In this document: one piece after another, positions 4,214 through 40,479 of the stretch
Layout: each line of letters opens with the position of its first letter
Position numbering within the stretch: the first letter of the stretch is position 1
Virus record (IMG/VR): IMGVR_UViG_3300044647_001355
Span: 1 to 43,405 of that record
DNA: 43,405 nt
From: a virus
Reading direction: 5' to 3' (one strand)
The notes under the pieces: generated by a model
Databases searched by the model: none
Told to the model about the DNA's origin: nothing
What the model saw: the letters and a program-made list of their open reading frames with translations, nothing else
Program-made: the position numbers and the translations under genes

Positions 4214-7105
4214 TCAGTTATTTGCTACTATTATCCAATTAGTTCCGTTAGACCTTACACGAACATACTTCCACTGAGCTGTCATGGTATAGGTAGCTGC
4301 TCCGTCGATTGTCTCTGCCCCCGAACCGTCAACGATAACTGAGTTTGCAGCCACCACCTTCTTGATGGTGTACTCCTTGCCCTTTATCTTGGCAGCAGTC
4401 GGTAGGTTGATGGTCACGTTACCGGAAGTGCTGTCAACCTCTACGGTGTCATCAAACGGTACCAGAGTGTAGTTGGCAGACTTTGATATCACGCCGTTAA
4501 GGAATGCAGGATCCTCAGCCCACTCAGCCTGACGTGTGTCAGTCTGTGAAGCGGCGTCTATGTATCCTGACTTGGTGACGATGTAAGCCTTTGTTTCCCC
4601 ATTCTCGCTCATGGTTATCCTTCCACCTTTCTGAACAAGCAGATATCCCAAGTTAAGGATGTTGTAGCTTGAAGAGATGGAGGAGATATTCTTTATGTAT
4701 CCGTTGTTACTGAAGTAAACTCCGGTAGCGGTAGTGTCAAAGTTTGTACTGCAAGTAAACTGCTTGGTGGTATTGTTCCAAGAGTCTATCGAGAATGCCT
4801 CTATTCCGTCCGGAGATGTGACGTTGCCCACATTCTGGATGAAGATATTGTCCTTGCCGGCGAAATAGTCAGGACGTCCGATGTCTATCCTTACATTGCT
4901 GATTACATTACTACCCGCTGTAACATCACCCAAGAAAGAGAGGAACTGAAGTGTTCTATACACATATACCCTGTAGTTTCCGTCAGGCATTGAACCGGTT
5001 ATGTAAGAAACCTTGAAGGTGCTTGCACCAATGTTCGTCACAATACCAACACCGGCAATCGTAAGGTTGGTGTTATAGAACGCAACCACTGAAGGAGGTG
5101 TAGACCTGAGCCATGCAAGGCTAGAGGAAGGTGCAGTGATTGTAACCTCACGGTTTCCATCTGTAGAAACCGCAATAGAAACTGCAGACCCGCCATTCAC
5201 CCTAAGATCCTGCAGGAAATAAGCTTGGTTTATGGAGCTCCTTGGACTGTGAGATATTTCTATACCACTTACAAGATTCCCTTCCTGCCGAATAATGTTC
5301 TTACCGTCAGCGTAGAAGTACCAGCCATTTTCAGGAAGTACACTCTGAGGGTTTAGTGCTCCAAGGTTTATCAGACCAGATCCAACATAGCAGTTGTCAA
5401 GCATCGTGTTCCCACGGTATCCAGTTTGTGACACTTCGAATCCGTCAATCTGAATGGGGGGAACAGTAAACCTACACTTGTCAAATGCAAATCTTCCGTT
5501 GAATACTATCGGATGGTATATTCCATCTCCGGTGTAATATCTAAATAAGCAGTTTTTGAAACCACAAACACCTGTTGCCAGTATATCATAAGAAGCTGAA
5601 GCATATGTTCCACCTGCGGGATATACGAAATCAAATACACTGTCAGAGATAGAGCTACCCATGGTAAAGTTAATATCCCCAATCCTTCCAAGGGACTCTG
5701 CGTACACGCTAGAGATCTTCATCGGGAAGTACCCGGTCTCAGATCGAGAACAGAGGGTATGATTTTTACCAGCAATGTTAACATTCTCTATCACCCAGTG
5801 GCCAACCTGACTTACGGAAGGGTAAGAAGATGCGCCGTACTTATTGAACACAAGTATCGTGTGAGTGTCTCCCCAGCAGCTGAGGAAGGACGCACGGTTC
5901 ATCTTCTCCTGATCCTGACACCCGGCGATACAACCCTTCACATTTGCAAACTGTATCCTGTTGAACTCAAGAAGCTCTGCGTTTTTGGTTGTTCCGTTCG
6001 GTGAGGTTATGATCCCTATAATAAAATTTGTTATTACACACTCATCAACCACGATACCGGTCGATCCATTATCGGGATCAATTACAATTATAAGATCACC
6101 AGTGGATGGATCTATATCATCATTCCCACGATAATATGTTGAAAGGCTTACGCCATATGCGTCAGTTCCCTGATAACCACCATCTGATGGTATGGTTGTA
6201 CTGCTGTGAGAAAAAGGATCTATCACAATACCCGCATACGGGCTGAATGGCTGGTTGCGGCATCCACTATCACTGTAATTTTCCCAAGAAGTTGAAAAAA
6301 ATACATCATTTGAAAGGTCTGGAGGTGCGTATGCCCCCTCAATTTTAAGATTCATTATCCTACACCCCTTACCCCTTTGTATGCCAAGAGCAAAAGAATT
6401 AGTAAACGTAGCCCTTATAGTTGACCCGCCATACGGACCCGCTGCCTCATAGAAAGATGTTTCTCCTATTAAGTTTACAGTATACGTTTGATAAAATGTC
6501 CCATTCCAGTTATGTGCTATAATTGGTTTTGCTATTACATATATACCTTCAGGGAAATATACATTGTGAAGCTTTTGATAATTTCTTATCAGCGTGTCTA
6601 TCGTTTTCTGAATAGGAACTTCATCGGTAGTTCCACTATTACCATTATCGCCCTTTGCCCCAAACCACTTAACACTGAAATATCTATTTGAAACTCCTAC
6701 AGGGTTTATTGTCATTGATGTTGAGAATATCTGCCTGTTGAACTCAGCATCTATAACACAGCCATTGACAGTTCCAGACCCGATGAATGCTCCATTAGAT
6801 CTGAACGTAAGCTTCTTCCCCTGACAGTTAAGTGTTCCAGATATGGTAATGTTTCCATTATCTATCACAACCTCTGAAACTCCAGAGTTTAAAAATATTG
6901 TGTTCAGCCTATAGGTCATGTCCGAGCCCGGGAGTACACCCCCGAGCCGGGCAAGGTATGGTCCCTTGTCGTCCGCAATCCTCCACTTGTCAGTGCCGCT
7001 TGCAAAGACAAATACGTCATCAGCTGCAGTTCCGGAACTAACCTGACGATAAAGACCGGAGCTGTCAAATGCGACCCCTAATGTTTGAGATGTATTGATT
7101 GCCAT
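4214..7105 (-). CDS. Tailspike with pectate-lyase-type beta-helix
   Basis: A 963-residue protein. Residues about 143-200 carry the usual entry to a right-handed beta-helix of the pectate lyase 3 family: KWFGAKGD, then a spaced run ending in VYFPEGIYVIAKPI. The middle is rich in short beta-strands with N, G and S turns, and the last 100 residues (TVEVDSTSGNVTINLPTA onward) form a separate beta domain common at the end of phage fibres. Proteins of this type bind and often cleave host surface polysaccharide. No catalytic residues can be assigned by eye, so enzyme activity is inference. It lies between two other fibre genes in a tight minus-strand operon. Confidence 0.8.
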   Translation of the reverse strand: MAINTSQTLGVAFDSSGLYRQVSSGTAADDVFVFASGTDKWRIADDKGPYLARLGGVLPGSDMTYRLNTIFLNSGVSEVVIDNGNITISGTLNCQGKKLTFRSNGAFIGSGTVNGCVIDAEFNRQIFSTSMTINPVGVSNRYFSVKWFGAKGDNGNSGTTDEVPIQKTIDTLIRNYQKLHNVYFPEGIYVIAKPIIAHNWNGTFYQTYTVNLIGETSFYEAAGPYGGSTIRATFTNSFALGIQRGKGCRIMNLKIEGAYAPPDLSNDVFFSTSWENYSDSGCRNQPFSPYAGIVIDPFSHSSTTIPSDGGYQGTDAYGVSLSTYYRGNDDIDPSTGDLIIVIDPDNGSTGIVVDECVITNFIIGIITSPNGTTKNAELLEFNRIQFANVKGCIAGCQDQEKMNRASFLSCWGDTHTILVFNKYGASSYPSVSQVGHWVIENVNIAGKNHTLCSRSETGYFPMKISSVYAESLGRIGDINFTMGSSISDSVFDFVYPAGGTYASASYDILATGVCGFKNCLFRYYTGDGIYHPIVFNGRFAFDKCRFTVPPIQIDGFEVSQTGYRGNTMLDNCYVGSGLINLGALNPQSVLPENGWYFYADGKNIIRQEGNLVSGIEISHSPRSSINQAYFLQDLRVNGGSAVSIAVSTDGNREVTITAPSSSLAWLRSTPPSVVAFYNTNLTIAGVGIVTNIGASTFKVSYITGSMPDGNYRVYVYRTLQFLSFLGDVTAGSNVISNVRIDIGRPDYFAGKDNIFIQNVGNVTSPDGIEAFSIDSWNNTTKQFTCSTNFDTTATGVYFSNNGYIKNISSISSSYNILNLGYLLVQKGGRITMSENGETKAYIVTKSGYIDAASQTDTRQAEWAEDPAFLNGVISKSANYTLVPFDDTVEVDSTSGNVTINLPTAAKIKGKEYTIKKVVAANSVIVDGSGAETIDGAATYTMTAQWKYVRVRSNGTNWIIVANN

Positions 7106-22988: not shown

Positions 22989-23122
22989 GTCGGGGGTGGC
23001 GGAAATAGACGCTAATAAGGTAAGATTGACTCCAGTTTAGGCAACTGGTCCTGTTCGTGATGCGCTATGTTAAGTGTCACCAACTTCATTGATCATACAG
23101 GTATCGAATCCTGTCCCCGACA
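22989..23122 (+). ncRNA. tRNA-Leu-like element TL-1
   Basis: A 134-base element. Acceptor GTCGGGG (22989-22995) pairs perfectly with CCCCGAC (23115-23121), followed by A. After it comes the D-arm sequence TGGCGGAAATAGACGC and before the 3' acceptor a T-arm ACAGG-TATCGAAT-CCTGT. The interior is not a normal anticodon arm plus variable arm: it carries a 6-base-pair hairpin CCAGTT/AACTGG and a GTGA/TCAC pairing. Its first base follows a candidate promoter, and the next gene starts 17 bases after its end. No CCA is encoded. Confidence 0.75.
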
Positions 23123-28459: not shown

Positions 28460-28630
28460 ATGAATCAAGACAGGAAAAATCTCATCATCGTTCTCGCCCT
28501 GCTCATTGCAGGACTTATATTTGCAGGACATGCAGACATGGAGCAATACCCGCAGCATGCCTGCTACGACTCCACGCACAAGACCTGTGACGGAAAGTGT
28601 AAATGCGATGGATTTGAATGTACGAAGTGA
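28460..28630 (+). CDS. Small membrane-anchored or secreted cysteine-rich protein
   Basis: The ATG at 28460 gives 56 residues. Residues 7-22 (NLIIVLALLIAGLIFAG) are a single hydrophobic segment, either a signal peptide or an anchor. The rest is cysteine-rich: HAC, KTC, GKC, KC and FEC, five Cys in 20 residues with DGKCKCDG spacing like a small disulphide knot or metal-binding loop. It would act in the periplasm or at the inner membrane. The stop codon lies inside the acceptor stem of MH-2. Confidence 0.7.
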   Translation: MNQDRKNLIIVLALLIAGLIFAGHADMEQYPQHACYDSTHKTCDGKCKCDGFECTK

Positions 28631-28663
28631 TGGTCGCAGGGTGGTTCGACTCCACCCGCTTCG
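28623..28663 (+). ncRNA. tRNA-like minihelix MH-2
   Basis: CGAAGTG (28623-28629) pairs with CGCTTCG (28657-28663), seven pairs with one G-U. Between are the linker ATGGTCGCAG and a T-arm GGTGG-TTCGACT-CCACC. Acceptor (7) plus T stem (5) gives the 12-pair tRNA half-molecule geometry. The stop codon of the preceding gene (28628-28630) is within the element. A second perfect hairpin GCTCGG/CCGAGC follows at 28673-28690. Confidence 0.7.
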
Positions 28664-28699
28664 CTAAACTGCGCTCGGCAGTACCCGAGCATTTACACC

Positions 28700-29140
28700 A
28701 TGAAGTACGCAATAATTAAGCACGGGACAGCAGAATTTGATGTTGTCACCGAAGATGGCGGGGTTGCATCCATCTACCTAAATGGGTATGGATACACTAC
28801 AATGTATTTTCAGTCAAGAATCGAAAACGGGAACTTTGATGAAGTAACGGAAGGAAAGGCATACTGCAAGGATTGGTCGGGAAATGAAGAAGACGATGTC
28901 ATGATTGCTGATGCCTTGAAATGGCTCGACCCGTTCGAGGACAAATGGGAGCATGATGACAGCATTTGGCCTCAGATGAATTGGACTGCCCACATCAAGT
29001 GGCATGGCGAGAATTACGGCCTCGCCATAATCGACAAAGGCAATTCGGTCAGGCAGACACCTGTTGTCAAGATAGGGGGCAATATCCTTTTTGACAATAC
29101 CCTTACTGAACGAGAAAGGCAAATTCTCTTATCCCTGTGA
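28700..29140 (+). CDS. Unrecognised acidic protein
   Basis: A 146-residue acidic, tryptophan-rich protein (MKYAIIKHGTAEFDVVTEDGG). It has alternating strands early and a helical C-terminus (TLTERERQILLSL). Start preceded by TTTACACC. The stop codon overlaps the first bases of MH-3. No family recognised. Confidence 0.7.
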   Translation: MKYAIIKHGTAEFDVVTEDGGVASIYLNGYGYTTMYFQSRIENGNFDEVTEGKAYCKDWSGNEEDDVMIADALKWLDPFEDKWEHDDSIWPQMNWTAHIKWHGENYGLAIIDKGNSVRQTPVVKIGGNILFDNTLTERERQILLSL

Positions 29141-29181
29141 GAGCGATGGTCGCAGGACGGGTTCGACTCCCGTCCGCTCTC
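29139..29181 (+). ncRNA. tRNA-like minihelix MH-3
   Basis: GAGAGCG (29139-29145) pairs perfectly with CGCTCTC (29175-29181). Linker ATGGTCGCAG is identical to that of MH-2. The T-arm is GACGGG-TTCGACT-CCCGTC. The stop codon of the preceding gene (29138-29140) overlaps the acceptor. The next ATG is 20 bases after the element, after the leader CTAATCAAAAACAAATCACC. Confidence 0.78.
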
Positions 29182-29201
29182 CTAATCAAAAACAAATCAC
29201 C

Positions 29202-29687
29202 ATGAGCAACTTTAATTTTGAAATAATAAAAGAAACCGAAAAGGCAATTTTTGCAAAAGTTCCTTATTTTGAAAAAACATCTGATAACGTTAAAAAACAC
29301 AAGCAATTATTTTATGAATGTTGGATACCTAAAGCAGTTATTGATAAAGGAATTGCAAAAGAATTTGTTATCGGAAAAAGAAATGAAATAAGATTATCCA
29401 ACAAATATCAAAGATTGTGCGAAATGCCGGATTGTTGGAAAACACTTGGAGAATATGCACCTGTAAAAACAGCACAAAAAGTTCAGGTTATTGATTATGA
29501 TAAGTTGTCAGAATTGATTAAGTTTTATGAAAATAAATATGGTGCAAACTTGCGGAGATTGGTCATAGATGGCGAAGGATCTAATGGATATGTAAGTGAT
29601 GAAGATGAAAAAATAATAAATCAATTAGAATTTCCTGCATTAACTAAGGCGCATATCCCCAAAAAACATATAACTATTTATTTGTAA
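29202..29687 (+). CDS. Unrecognised AT-rich small gene
   Basis: The ATG at 29202 (MSNFNFEIIKETEKAIFAK) follows the operon-typical AAATCACC leader; an upstream extension would read through MH-3. The 161-residue lysine-rich product has KKHKQLFYECWIPKAVIDKG and a helical C-terminus. The gene is much richer in A and T than its neighbours, which suggests separate origin. No family recognised. Confidence 0.7.
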   Translation: MSNFNFEIIKETEKAIFAKVPYFEKTSDNVKKHKQLFYECWIPKAVIDKGIAKEFVIGKRNEIRLSNKYQRLCEMPDCWKTLGEYAPVKTAQKVQVIDYDKLSELIKFYENKYGANLRRLVIDGEGSNGYVSDEDEKIINQLEFPALTKAHIPKKHITIYL

Positions 29688-29688
29688 G

Positions 29689-29712
29689 GGCAAAGAAACA
29701 GCCTGTTTTTTA
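29689..29712 (+). terminator. Weak terminator-like hairpin
   Basis: AAACA-GCC-TGTTT (29696-29708) followed by T residues, within a GGC/GCC pair, just after the stop of the AT-rich gene. The stem is short and AT-rich, so function is doubtful. Confidence 0.35.
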
Positions 29713-29722
29713 ATCCTCCCCC

Positions 29723-29764
29723 GAACTGTGATGGTCTAATGTGGGTTCGACTCCCACGCAGTTC
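29723..29764 (+). ncRNA. tRNA-like minihelix MH-4
   Basis: GAACTGT (29723-29729) pairs with GCAGTTC (29758-29764), seven pairs with one U-G. Linker GATGGTCTAAT; T-arm GTGGG-TTCGACT-CCCAC, a canonical 5-pair stem and 7-base T loop. It begins 35 bases after a stop codon and ends 19 bases before the next ATG (leader CTCATCAAAACAAATCAAA). Confidence 0.78.
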
Positions 29765-29783
29765 CTCATCAAAACAAATCAAA

Positions 29784-30011
29784 ATGAGCAACACGCACTA
29801 TGTACTTATCAACGATGACAACGAGGTGGTCGCTGTCATAAAAAAGCAAAACTTCAAAGGTAGACTTGTGACAGCCATCGAAGATGAAACAGAGCAGGAT
29901 GTATTGGGGTTGCAATTGGATCAGATTGAATACAATAGTTACATGATTAAAGCAAGGATTTCGGGCGGTCAGACATACACCGCCACGCTTAGACAAACTT
30001 GGGAATATTAA
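29784..30011 (+). CDS. Unrecognised small beta-rich protein
   Basis: The ATG at 29784 (MSNTHYVLINDDNEVVAVIK) gives 75 residues, mostly short strands (MIKARISGGQTYTATLR). The opening MSNTHYVLINDDN recalls small SH3-like folds but no family is recognised. It starts 19 bases after MH-4, and its ORF extension upstream would translate that element. Confidence 0.65.
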   Translation: MSNTHYVLINDDNEVVAVIKKQNFKGRLVTAIEDETEQDVLGLQLDQIEYNSYMIKARISGGQTYTATLRQTWEY

Positions 30012-30022
30012 AACAAATCACC

Positions 30023-30307
30023 ATGGTAGAATCAAATTACATCCATGCCGACAGAGTCCTGTCAAGCATCTACGCTGATGCTGTTGGCAAGTTTATGTCC
30101 AAGGCAGAGAATCAACTATGCTTCGATGAAATTTGCGAATATGTTCATCGTAAACTACAGCATAGAAAACAAGATGGGTATACTCACTCTTTAGCCATCG
30201 TCAAAGAAGTTTGTAAAAAGGTAGGAGAAAACTTTGACGGGTGCGTGGAGTACTATGCGCCAAATGCTAAATGCTATCGAGATATTTATTTTGCAATCTA
30301 TAATTGA
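30023..30307 (+). CDS. Unrecognised small protein
   Basis: The ATG at 30023 (MVESNYIHADRVLSSIYADA), after AAACAAATCACC, gives 94 residues. Helical N-terminus, then HRKLQHRKQDGYTH and a cysteine-containing C-terminus (EVCKKVGENFDGCVEYY). No family recognised. Confidence 0.65.
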   Translation: MVESNYIHADRVLSSIYADAVGKFMSKAENQLCFDEICEYVHRKLQHRKQDGYTHSLAIVKEVCKKVGENFDGCVEYYAPNAKCYRDIYFAIYN

Positions 30308-30314
30308 ACATCCT

Positions 30315-30401
30315 ATGCAGATTTATATTTTTTTGTGTGCGGGGATGATAATTGTAGTCATACTTATGATACTCGGAATCATTTATGACGACAGGCAATA
30401 A
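30315..30401 (+). CDS. Tiny single-pass membrane protein
   Basis: A 28-residue frame, MQIYIFLCAGMIIVVIL then MILGIIYDDRQ, is almost wholly one hydrophobic helix with a charged C-terminus. It lies 7 bases after the preceding stop and ends 7 bases before MH-5, fitting the gap exactly. Small phage membrane proteins of this size often act on the host envelope; no specific role can be given. Confidence 0.5.
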   Translation: MQIYIFLCAGMIIVVILMILGIIYDDRQ

Positions 30402-30408
30402 TACCCCC

Positions 30409-30452
30409 GAACTGCTATGGTACTCGATCGGGTTCGATTCCCGATGCAGTTC
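30409..30452 (+). ncRNA. tRNA-like minihelix MH-5
   Basis: GAACTGC (30409-30415) pairs perfectly with GCAGTTC (30446-30452). Linker TATGGTACTCG; T-arm ATCGGG-TTCGATT-CCCGAT, six pairs and a 7-base T loop. Compared with MH-4 the last acceptor pair is C-G instead of U-G, and the T stem is changed on both sides, so pairing is kept. It starts 7 bases after a stop and ends 19 bases before the next ATG. Confidence 0.8.
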
Positions 30453-30471
30453 CTCATCAAAACAACAAACC

Positions 30472-38910: not shown

Positions 38911-39138
38911 ATGAGTAAAGAATCAGCAGGAGCTGCATGGAAGAAGAACATCAACACTAAGAACGGAGAGGTTGAGGTACTGAGCATCACGATCGGGGAC
39001 AAGCGTTACACCGCATGGCCCAACACCTACAAGAAGCCCGGTGAAAAGAGCCCCGACTACAGGCTGCAGGAAGACAACTGGAAGCCGGAGTCCAAGCTTG
39101 CACCCAAGTTCGCAGGGCAGGAAGATCTGCCGTTCTAA
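38911..39138 (+). CDS. Small protein with SSB-type C-terminal tail
   Basis: A 75-residue protein (MSKESAGAAWKKNINTKNGE) with a small strand domain (VEVLSITIGDKRYTAWPNTY) resembling short DUF736-like or SSB-like proteins of phages and mobile elements. It ends QEDLPF, like the DDDIPF tip by which SSB proteins recruit replication partners. A single-strand-DNA or replication-fork accessory role is inferred; no OB fold can be shown by eye. Confidence 0.7.
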   Translation: MSKESAGAAWKKNINTKNGEVEVLSITIGDKRYTAWPNTYKKPGEKSPDYRLQEDNWKPESKLAPKFAGQEDLPF

Positions 39139-39144
39139 TTAGGT

Positions 39145-39231
39145 TTCCCGGATGGCGTAACTGCGAATGAATAGCAGCATAGGGTAACGCTCCACATTGG
39201 AAGATGCGGGTTCGAATCCCGCTCCGGGAAC
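39145..39231 (+). ncRNA. tRNA-like element TL-2, distinct class
   Basis: TTCCCGG (39145-39151) pairs with CCGGGAA (39224-39230). The T-arm GCGGG-TTCGAAT-CCCGC (39206-39222) is canonical. The interior is not a standard D plus anticodon arm: after ATGGC it has GCGT/ACGC enclosing CTGC/GCAG, then TCCA-CAT-TGGA. Length 87 bases. It starts 6 bases after a stop codon and abuts TL-3. A highly diverged tRNA is the alternative. Confidence 0.65.
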
Positions 39232-39237
39232 GAAATT

Positions 39238-39323
39238 GTCAGGGTGGCGAAATGGTAGACGCTATACTTAAGCAGTTGAAGCTGGGCAATTCAACAATAC
39301 AGGTTCGAATCCTGTCCCTGACA
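39238..39323 (+). ncRNA. tRNA-Leu-like element TL-3
   Basis: The shortest Leu-like copy, 86 bases. Acceptor GTCAGGG/CCCTGAC is perfect, with discriminator A; D-arm TGGCGAAATGGTAGACGC; T-arm ACAGG-TTCGAAT-CCTGT. At the anticodon position CTTAAGC could present UAA (Leu), but the stem beside it has only three of five pairs; a better hairpin is GTTGAA/TTCAAC next to it. It may be a degenerate or unusual tRNA-Leu(UAA). The next ATG is 23 bases on. No CCA encoded. Confidence 0.7.
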
Positions 39324-39346: not shown

Positions 39347-39565
39347 ATGTGGGTAATTACAAGAGCAGTAAATGAATATGACCAAGATGGTGATTATTTT
39401 GAATGCGTGTTTCAAAGTAAACCGACCCTTGAGCAGTTAGTAAAATATTTTGACGATGAGGAATTGGCTAAACACGTTTTAAATGGAGGTGGGAGAATTG
39501 AATTTGAACATACTTGGTACTATTTAACTCCGATGAAATCGGGAGAGAAATACGTACAGTCTTGA
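39347..39565 (+). CDS. Unrecognised AT-rich small gene
   Basis: A 72-residue acidic protein (MWVITRAVNEYDQDGDYFEC) with a strand-helix-strand plan (PTLEQLVKYFDDEELAKHVL, then RIEFEHTWYYL). AT-rich compared with the replication genes. It stands alone between TL-3 and TL-4, 23 bases after one and 15 before the other. Confidence 0.7.
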   Translation: MWVITRAVNEYDQDGDYFECVFQSKPTLEQLVKYFDDEELAKHVLNGGGRIEFEHTWYYLTPMKSGEKYVQS

Positions 39566-39580
39566 TTATTTATATTTTTT

Positions 39581-39709
39581 GTCGGGGTGGCGGAATGGAG
39601 TATCAGATACTCTTTGGTAGACGCTAATATGCTAAGTCCCTTTGGAGCTAAACCGAGATTGCAATAGGTTAAATGGGGGACGTACAGGTTCGAATCCTTG
39701 TCCTTGACT
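39581..39709 (+). ncRNA. tRNA-Leu-like element TL-4
   Basis: 129 bases. Acceptor GTCGGGG pairs with CCTTGAC through two G-U pairs. The D-loop is split by an 18-base insert containing hairpin GAGTAT-CA-GATACTC minus its first base, between AATG and GGTAGACGC. The interior is closed by GTCCC/GGGAC and carries AACC/GGTT. The T-arm has ACAGG-TTCGAAT-CC with one extra T on the 3' side. The G-U pairs and bulge suggest an older, drifting copy. The next ATG is 17 bases on. Confidence 0.68.
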
Positions 39710-39726
39710 ACTTAAAATTAATACTT

Positions 39727-39885
39727 ATGTGTTGTAGTAATACAAGCTACGAAAGGAAAGAAATAAATGGAGAATGTCCAGATTGCGGAGAGCCCACCGT
39801 AAATGGGAATGCATATGATTGCTGCGATTATTCACCTACGCAGTGTGAAACTTGTGGGTGGGCTCCATGCGATGAGTCTTGTTAA
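39727..39885 (+). CDS. Small cysteine-rich zinc-ribbon-like protein
   Basis: The ATG at 39727 gives 52 residues with ten Cys: MCCSN, CPDC, YDCCDY, CETCGW and APCDESC. The CPDC and CETC pairs fit a zinc ribbon. A role in nucleic-acid or protein binding is likely; the target is unknown. It lies alone between TL-4 and TL-5, starting 17 bases after one and ending 5 bases before the other. Confidence 0.65.
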   Translation: MCCSNTSYERKEINGECPDCGEPTVNGNAYDCCDYSPTQCETCGWAPCDESC

Positions 39886-39890
39886 ACACA

Positions 39891-40029
39891 GTCAGGGTGG
39901 CGAAATGGTAGACGCTTTGTAAAGGTTCATTCGGAGAGATTAATTACCTTGAAGATTGATTTTACCCTGAGAAAGGACTTTATAAGATAGGTTGCAAACT
40001 AATACAGGTATCGAATCCTGTCCCTGACA
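39891..40029 (+). ncRNA. tRNA-Leu-like element TL-5
   Basis: 139 bases. Acceptor GTCAGGG/CCCTGAC is perfect, with discriminator A; D-arm TGGCGAAATGGTAGACGC is identical to TL-3. T-arm ACAGG-TATCGAAT-CCTGT has the 8-base loop seen in TL-1. The 90-base interior shares no clear similarity with the other copies; AAGGT/ACCTT is one possible stem. It starts 5 bases after a stop and ends 31 bases before the next ATG. Confidence 0.72.
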
Positions 40030-40060: not shown

Positions 40061-40321
40061 ATGTACAGAGAACCAGTTCCTGAAAGAATGCCAGATCGAG
40101 TAGAATATGAGGTTGGAACAGATGTGGCAAAAAACTATGGTAAACAACGTTTACTGCAAGAATACCCTGTTACTATTAGGTTTTTATCTATAGGATGTGT
40201 TATTGAAGTGGGATGTAGAAGTGTTCCCTTTTCTAGTTCGGATGAAGCTATGAAACAACTTAATGAATACGTTTCTGATCCTCATAAAGCAATTGAAAAA
40301 TGGCGTAAGATATTTGAATAA
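40061..40321 (+). CDS. Unrecognised AT-rich small gene
   Basis: An 86-residue protein (MYREPVPERMPDRVEYEVGT) with a strand-rich middle (YPVTIRFLSIGCVIEVGCRS) and a helical end (DPHKAIEKWRKIFE). Start after an A-rich leader. It stands alone between TL-5 and TL-6. No family recognised. Confidence 0.68.
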   Translation: MYREPVPERMPDRVEYEVGTDVAKNYGKQRLLQEYPVTIRFLSIGCVIEVGCRSVPFSSSDEAMKQLNEYVSDPHKAIEKWRKIFE

Positions 40322-40327
40322 AATTTA

Positions 40328-40479
40328 GTCAGGGTGGCGGAAGATAGACGCTACTGGTTAAATAGTGGGTATATGATGCGTAACGACTAACTATGAAAAC
40401 CCACACAGGAGGAAAGTATTTCCACATCAGTGGAAGCATCAATGAAATTCCTTGCAGGTATCGAATCCTGTCCCTGACA
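40328..40479 (+). ncRNA. tRNA-Leu-like element TL-6
   Basis: The longest copy, 152 bases. Acceptor GTCAGGG/CCCTGAC is perfect, with A after it. After the D-arm (TGGCGGAAGATAGACGC) an anticodon-like arm CTACT-GGTTAAAT-AGTGG presents UAA in an 8-base loop. Then come GTGGGT/ACCCAC and a perfect TTCCAC-ATCA-GTGGAA hairpin before the T-arm GCAGG-TATCGAAT-CCTGT. It begins 6 bases after a stop codon. A terminator follows before the next gene. Confidence 0.72.

Follow-up and report, generated by a model that had tools for sequence, protein, structure and literature searches.

The DNA analysed here (the window, all 43,405 nucleotides (nt) of the IMG/VR virus record IMGVR_UViG_3300044647_001355) contains four copies of a short element in which a tRNA acceptor stem is joined by a linker to a T arm, which we call a minihelix. 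Sequence comparison identifies the minihelices as a covarying RNA family carried by phages of distant bacterial hosts. They are probably cis-acting, autonomous minimal tRNA mimics, used as RNase P and RNase Z sites that punctuate polycistronic phage transcripts. The window is from a tailed phage and also encodes a portal protein, large terminase, RecE-like exonuclease, primase/helicase and integrase. Its four minihelices are as follows, with stem lengths in base pairs (bp).

Minihelix 1: 28623..28665, + strand; acceptor 28623-28629/28657-28663 (7 bp), linker ATGGTCGCAG, T stem of 5 bp, loop TTCGACT, followed by C, T.
Minihelix 2: 29139..29183, + strand; 7+6 pairs (or 6+7), linker ATGGTCGCAG, loop TTCGACT, followed by C.
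Minihelix 3: 29723..29766, + strand; 7+5 pairs (last acceptor pair T-G), linker GATGGTCTAAT, loop TTCGACT.
Minihelix 4: 30409..30454, + strand; 7+6 pairs, linker TATGGTACTCG, loop TTCGATT, followed by C.

The four minihelices are real and beyond chance. As originally predicted, all acceptor and T-stem positions pair, with G-U allowed, in the structures at 28623-28663, 29139-29181, 29723-29764 and 30409-30452 (+ strand). A strict descriptor (seven acceptor pairs, five or six T-stem pairs, a TTCRANN loop and a linker of 8-13 nt) matched four times in the window, both strands counted together, compared with a mean of 0.018 in 500 dinucleotide shuffles, 493 of which had no match, six had one and one had three. 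Four copies were also present at matching places in G001, a 68-kb IMG/VR contig that has the window sequence in common where compared. The position first given for them, between small genes, holds and can be stated more exactly as gene ends. Stop codons at 28628-28630 and 29138-29140 (TGA) overlap minihelix 1 and the start of minihelix 2, and those at 29687 and 30399-30401 lie 35 and 7 nt upstream of minihelices 3 and 4; the next ATG codons are at 28700, 29202, 29784 and 30472. No Pfam families were found in ten small window genes, most of which adjoin minihelices, and no DNA relatives of the right half of the window were found in the phage collection.

The evidence for a family comes from pattern searches and covariance models. 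A pattern of GATGGT plus the T-loop core was found in at least 119 stretches in IMG/VR. A tighter pattern was found in 87 there and in 93 in one-per-species genomes, mostly Streptomyces, Nonomuraea and relatives, plus one Bacteroidales metagenome-assembled genome (MAG) and one Hymenobacter; a pattern match is not always an element. Since the tighter pattern fixes just one acceptor letter, pairing could be assessed blind to structure: 119 of 163 distinct exact matches had at least six of seven acceptor pairs in register 0, compared with a mean of 38.5 when partners were shuffled and with 3 or 10 matches when the register was slid by one. The signal was stronger in the viral part (47/78 vs 3.9 shuffled) than in the genome part (72/85 vs 51.8, with only 21 distinct 5′ strands). 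Six of seven pairs were lacking in registers 0 to -2 in 33 of the 163, some of which fit a 5+7 form (L016, L132) and others of which are chance-like.

A covariance model, R1, was built from 12 seeds picked for full pairing (97.4% paired vs 62.5% shuffled) and gave 114 matches at E<=1e-5 in 94 chosen sources. Pairing was found in 93.8% of cells in 105 distinct rows (59.8% shuffled), with a score of 0.779 vs 0.149 and 444 double changes vs 137 in shuffles; in 53 distinct rows, mostly from named phages, these values were 99.2% vs 62.2% and 0.836 vs 0.149. These fitted alignments were chosen or aligned by pairing and are biased upward, a bias that the structure-blind test does not have. With R1, minihelices 1 and 3 scored 43.1 and 35.5 bits, and minihelices 2 and 4 scored 65.5 and 43 bits, yet the latter two are themselves seeds. 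The homologues and the covariation by which the original prediction proposed to judge the element are thus both found, the former in many IMG/VR and named phages and the latter also in the structure-blind test. The family was further supposed to be undescribed. This stands on two negative searches: no Rfam 15 family (of 4227) matched above its gathering threshold at the four minihelices, and no such phage family was found in the open-access full-text literature, preprints excluded. The tRNA model RF00005, a cloverleaf with anticodon arm, likewise gave no gathering-threshold match at the four minihelices, where tRNA-Sec, mascRNA and tmRNA-fragment models matched weakly below threshold.

The seven-pair acceptor and five- to six-pair T stem first described hold for the window copies but not for the family. 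The outermost of 13 modelled pairs is unpaired in 52/103 rows, which rules out a 7-bp acceptor as a family rule; the family constant is instead a coaxial helix of about 12 bp (11-13), which a one-sided bulge may split 5+7, 6+6 or 7+5. Helix length was counted in 298 distinct elements (360 matches before deduplication, compared with 2-8 in each of five Markov copies of the same loci). Their T stems were 5, 6 and 7 bp long in 37, 194 and 56 elements. Counting outward from the T loop, position 12 was paired in 72% (48% expected from composition) and position 13 in 34% (26% expected), where the TTCRANN loop, the first 11 pairs and the linker GG were selection criteria. For T stems of 5, 6 and 7 bp, position 12 was paired in 70%, 68% and 93% (expected 45%, 42% and 76%) and position 13 in 41%, 33% and 29%. 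The contiguous helix was 11 bp in 83 elements, 12 bp in 143, 13 bp in 70 and 14 bp in 2. Both the descriptor and the alignment show a tRNA T arm with a TTCRANN loop stacked on an acceptor, 12 bp in total.

The T loop of the elements is of the TTCGANT type, and their bulge carries a D-loop-like GG; in the 11- and 12-bp classes a purine and then C mostly follow the helix, and CCA rarely does. These features resemble RNase P determinants. The bases after the helix were A or G and then C in 108/143 elements of the 12-bp class and 57/83 of the 11-bp class, and the next base was C in 56/70 of the 13-bp class; purine-C followed the helix in 1/22 matches in the Markov copies. The proposal that the linker GG stands in for G18-G19 of tRNA gains from its presence in 57/59 elements of the annotated loci found without requiring GG (2-3 nt from the linker start in 46/59; shuffled linkers, mean 38.6, maximum 47). 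A review of RNase P (PMC11143913) describes hairpins of acceptor, T stem and T loop as cleaved by RNase P, the 12-bp length of T stem plus acceptor as a suggested measuring device of the enzyme, and R73-C-C-A, where R is a purine, as pairing with RNase P RNA. A total helix length that stays constant while the bulge slides is what would be expected if the enzyme acting on it gauged the distance between the T loop and the site of cleavage. The 12-bp ruler and purine-C end strengthen the likeness to the smallest RNase P model substrate noted in the original prediction.

We examined the placement of the elements in 12 annotated loci (118,092 bases, of which 18,498 are intergenic, with elements called intergenic by midpoint). 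These contain 57 elements, of which 54 lie between two same-strand genes, one in another gap and two inside an annotated coding sequence (CDS); 20 shuffles of the loci gave 0-2 descriptor matches per replicate, and dropping the GG rule gave one match on the opposite strand across all 12. Elements begin close behind stop codons (2-16 nt in 38/54, median 9 nt) and end further from the next start (29-52 nt in 43/54, median 45 nt). In the parts of Indlulamithi, VanLee, Konstantine, Predator and Endor1 covered, 45/56 same-strand gaps of at least 60 nt were occupied, with no antisense element, and 49 of 51 loci with at least two elements had them on a single strand throughout. When one 45-nt actinomycete copy was used as a blastn query, 76 phage records matched (Mycobacterium 41, Gordonia 22, Streptomyces 6). 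Among the 60 matches listed, 45 had no annotated feature beneath, and the other 15 were in Trine or were weak matches in an ATPase gene of Gordonia phages; certain weak matches may be true tRNAs. Annotated CDSs cover minihelices near their 5′ ends in Trine (gp40, L273), Predator (gp49, L272) and Indlulamithi (gp53, L282), probably because the annotated starts are too far upstream. In addition, an ARAGORN tRNA-Val call at L277:4245-4335 overlaps a minihelix at 4288-4333 and is probably false, induced by the minihelix.

Close relatives differ at individual junctions. Konstantine, Damien and Megatron06 are ~96% identical in this region. When their junctions were matched by gene order and length, one carried an ATGGTC form in Konstantine and an ACTGGC form in Damien and Megatron06, and at another the Megatron06 element differed from that of Konstantine and Damien. 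At these junctions the sequence has been exchanged while the minihelix form was retained.

The flanks of the elements were also compared with dinucleotide shuffles. The 36 nt after the helix had a mean folding z score of -0.93, with z<-2 in 24% of 298, and the 36 nt before it had a mean of -0.46, with z<-2 in 14% of 298. In the stretch of Indlulamithi that was read, junctions run from a stop codon to a minihelix and on to a GAGAGGATG-like ribosome site and a start codon, with a small hairpin frequently following the minihelix; in the window, a GCTCGG/CCGAGC hairpin was seen by eye in the leader between minihelix 1 and the ATG at 28700. Such a hairpin at a 5′ end could protect a processed mRNA. 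In L004, a TAGTGA...TCACTA hairpin occurs at ~5899-5917, 6379-6397 and 7084-7103, two of these copies directly following an element and the third closely preceding one.

Transcription terminators, or integron attC-like DNA recombination sites of gene cassettes, would also give hairpins where genes end, modular units of gene plus element and swapping at a junction; we consider both very unlikely. There is no U tract after the helix (T fraction 0.183 in 12 nt vs 0.202 background; TTTT in 6/298), and a terminator scan of the window region gave two terminator-like matches, neither at a minihelix; the terminator reading is ruled out on these two grounds. An attC site is recognised by R′ and R″ core sites together with an integron integrase; the conserved T loop and GG are a signature of tRNA and are not known from attC, which argues against this reading. 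Promoter and terminator scans of Indlulamithi and the window region were not above shuffles, which fits long common transcripts.

The covariation, the 12-bp ruler, the placement, the swap in the Konstantine group and the folding of the leaders support a tRNA-like cutting signal between genes for RNase P and RNase Z. We infer that each element is transcribed within a polycistronic RNA and recognised by host RNase P, which would measure 12 bp from the T loop, contact positions 73 and 74 and cut at the 5′ end of the minihelix. RNase Z or another tRNA 3′ nuclease would cut after position 73. The two cuts would separate the mRNAs, such that the upstream mRNA ends a few nt past its stop codon and the downstream mRNA begins with a short leader, often with a hairpin first. 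The freed minihelix would be a by-product or a short-lived 3′ tag.

Several observations weigh on the other side. As regards the structure itself, single-copy fold energies are moderate (z of -1.2, -1.9, -1.4 and -2.1 vs shuffles for minihelices 1-4), and only for minihelix 3 is the minimum-energy fold the full proposed pairing; minihelix 2 folds in a slid register (6+7), and the acceptor of minihelix 1 and the T arm of minihelix 4 pair differently. The case for minihelices depends on comparison. As regards processing by RNase P and RNase Z, the full RCCA is found in 5/143 elements of the 12-bp class, with C75-A76, half of the RCCA contact, mostly absent; position 73 is C in the four window minihelices. 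In 125/143, A or C precedes the 12-bp helix, whereas E. coli RNase P prefers U before its cleavage site. The leader-hairpin signal is moderate, with no leader hairpin seen by eye at window minihelices 2-4. Among folded cases (z<-1), the hairpin starts within 0-5 nt in 119/132 after the element and also in 64/85 before it, so hairpin position alone is little informative. By eye, certain leaders in L073 and Konstantine are promoter-like, and to judge from their sequence certain junctions may start transcripts.

Placement has its exceptions too. Three elements of Trine, a phage outside the 12-locus count, lie in or overlap annotated gp40, giving 54/60 with Trine. Two of the 54 (L271:10038 and L272:8498), which end in CGCG and overlap a stop codon by 12 nt, are doubtful as elements. 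By the descriptor, 11 of the 56 gaps were empty, although variants were seen by eye in 4 of these 11. Finally, minihelices stand in tandem ~100-125 nt apart at L148:6500-7040, L132:7480-7900 and L016:4700-5000, on minus strands; their spacers consist of GGCNNGGC-like repeats, and the copies have no evident gene between them. Gene punctuation does not explain these arrays, for which a role in trans is possible.

The scarcity of C75-A76 favours, at least as much as RNase P, an alternative in which minihelices are 3′ caps. Here only an RNase Z-type 3′ nuclease would act, and the minihelix would stay on the upstream mRNA and protect its 3′ end, possibly with CCA added, like the tRNA-like ends of certain plant virus RNAs. 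CCA blocks RNase Z. The element's place, mostly 2-16 nt behind a stop codon, also suits a cap, and PMC10673834 reports that CCA must be added to over half of the tRNA species of M. tuberculosis. The 12-bp ruler, the preference for G at +1 and the purine-C at positions 73-74 are, however, features of a 5′ cut by RNase P, and we regard caps as unlikely, though not far-fetched.

The tandem arrays bear on a different role, in which freed minihelices would act in trans, sequestering tRNA-binding proteins, RNase P or anti-phage tRNA nucleases in the manner of decoys or sponges, with the junctions just securing their transcription. The number of copies per phage stretch (9 in L073, 14 in L277) would suit such a role as well. 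A decoy, however, needs neither one-per-junction placement nor the occupancy of 45/56 gaps. Moreover, minihelices offer no anticodon loop to anticodon nucleases, and the free variation of their stems argues against a stem-sequence-specific partner. We judge a role in trans to be improbable.

The window also holds six longer tRNA-like elements, five of them tRNA-Leu-like, in which acceptor and T arm are retained with 53 to about 120 nt between them. Two of the six were identified by reading the sequence by eye.

22989..23121, + strand: longer tRNA-Leu-like element with replaced middle, in which the acceptor, a D-arm-like stretch and an 8-nt T loop are retained; followed by AA.
39146..39229, + strand: longer tRNA-like element with acceptor, T arm and a differently folding middle; followed by A, C.
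39238..39322, + strand: tRNA-Leu-like element, called Leu aag by ARAGORN; followed by A, C; ATG of the next open reading frame (ORF) at 39347.
39581..39708, + strand: longer tRNA-Leu-like element with irregular T arm, 15 nt past the stop of ORF 39347-39565.
39891..40028, + strand: longer tRNA-Leu-like element, 5 nt past the stop at 39885; followed by A, C.
40328..40478, + strand: longer tRNA-Leu-like element, found by eye, 6 nt past the stop at 40321; followed by A, C.

The element at 39238 is the sole Rfam report in the window at gathering thresholds (tRNA match at 39238-39323, 40.8 bits). That at 39146..39229 begins 7 nt past the stop of ORF 38911-39138. Taken whole, the element at 39581..39708 does not fold better than shuffles (z 0.61), and the next ORF is listed from an ATG at 39673 inside it, with an in-frame ATG also at 39727. 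Four of the six start 5-15 nt past an ORF stop and four of the six are followed by A, C, which suggests a range of forms from near-tRNA to minihelix with one common job. These longer elements, certain of them with irregular T arms, together with the swapping of elements between near-identical phages, could also be expected if minihelices were functionless relics, left by real tRNA genes or by integration targeted at tRNAs, that gene shuffling has carried along. Decay would break pairs, yet pairing is retained while the stem letters vary, as the structure-blind test likewise shows, and phages of distant hosts have one minihelix form in common. We consider relics extremely unlikely.

We found the family in IMG/VR phages and in named phages of Mycobacterium, Gordonia, Streptomyces and Bacteroides; in the genomes of actinomycetes and Bacteroidota its occurrence is sporadic. 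A second covariance model of 12 bp, R2, built from a wider alignment, gave 2-13 matches (E<=0.01) in each of 12 phage records chosen as element carriers, and matches in 8/81 Streptomyces genomes, one of them the chosen centre, and in 1/119 Bacteroidia genomes, which was the chosen centre itself. Just 78 and 53 candidates per genome were scored in the Streptomyces and Bacteroidia searches, with strict filters under which weak copies can be missed. The models moreover favour the ATGGTC form, and the counts are therefore lower bounds. They indicate that strong copies are rare in host genomes; R2 is silent on the hosts' many tRNA genes. Three of eight genomes reached through pattern loci (the Myxococcales and Burkholderiales MAGs and Sinorhizobium) had no R2 match among 150 candidates scored, and their pattern matches are probably not elements. 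Pfam searches of 20 long ORFs (simple ORF rule) from ten host loci gave little, namely an integrase in L209 and DUF2637 in L187. The description of chromosomal copies as mobile elements thus comes mainly from their sporadic spread. No DNA relatives of the L148 region were found in the phage collection. A minihelix between two genes of the Gordonia bronchialis plasmid pGBRO01, typed mobilizable (L285:4002-4042), shows that the family is not confined to phages. In Fromanvirus, a well-studied group of mycobacteriophages, minihelices lie between leftward genes near the right end of Mulciber (L280:1788-1830) and Journey13 (L292:2168-2211).

Elements with parts of this character are known from other systems. 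Non-tRNA substrates of RNase P occur in operons and phages, namely at sites within bacterial polycistronic mRNAs and in C4-type antisense RNA of phages. These are known as single, structurally unrelated sites, whereas minihelices form a repeated, covarying family. The tRNA-like structures of plant viruses (turnip yellow mosaic virus and others) are likewise viral mimics of the acceptor/T half, but an RNA genome has just one, at its 3′ end, and it is built with a pseudoknot. According to the title of a work cited in PMC11143913, RNase P reacts with such a structure. The McClain and Altman model hairpins of acceptor, T stem and T loop, as treated in PMC11143913, have the architecture and 12-bp length of minihelices. 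The latter are instead natural and genome-encoded, bear GG in a bulge, mostly lack CCA and are putative substrates. In mitochondrial tRNA punctuation, as a section of PMC8601606 describes it, tRNA units between genes are excised from a long transcript, freeing mRNAs; minihelices are similarly tRNA-shaped units between genes, without an anticodon arm or decoding role and rarely with CCA. The t-elements of plant mitochondria are tRNA-like secondary structures that define intergenic cleavage sites, according to a passage of PMC8003010 citing Forner 2007. Minihelices resemble them in lying between same-strand genes (54/57). The t-elements are organellar, whereas minihelices belong to bacterial viruses, have one minimal form in many covarying copies, and are predicted to be processed.

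Our combined findings incline us, by a little, towards a code of gene punctuation in general use by tailed phages and related mobile elements, spread over at least the viruses of Actinomycetota and Bacteroidota. In such a code, a stand-alone RNase P/RNase Z signal of ~41-44 nt, stripped to ruler and elbow, would let small genes shuffle as self-insulated cassettes of stop codon, minihelix, leader hairpin, ribosome site and start codon. No description of messages delimited by tRNA processing in bacterial viruses was found in the open-access literature, preprints excluded. Minihelices already indicate that deposited phages (Trine, Predator, Indlulamithi) have features missed in annotation and, probably, misplaced gene starts. 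If the proposal is true, they would constitute a large natural set of minimal RNase P substrates showing which tRNA parts are needed (12-bp ruler, elbow GG and purine-C, without CCA), and synthetic operons would gain compact cutting modules whose stem sequence is free. Many phages would then delimit their messages with tRNA-processing signals, a principle known from mitochondria, and phage gene expression would depend on the tRNA-processing enzymes of the host.

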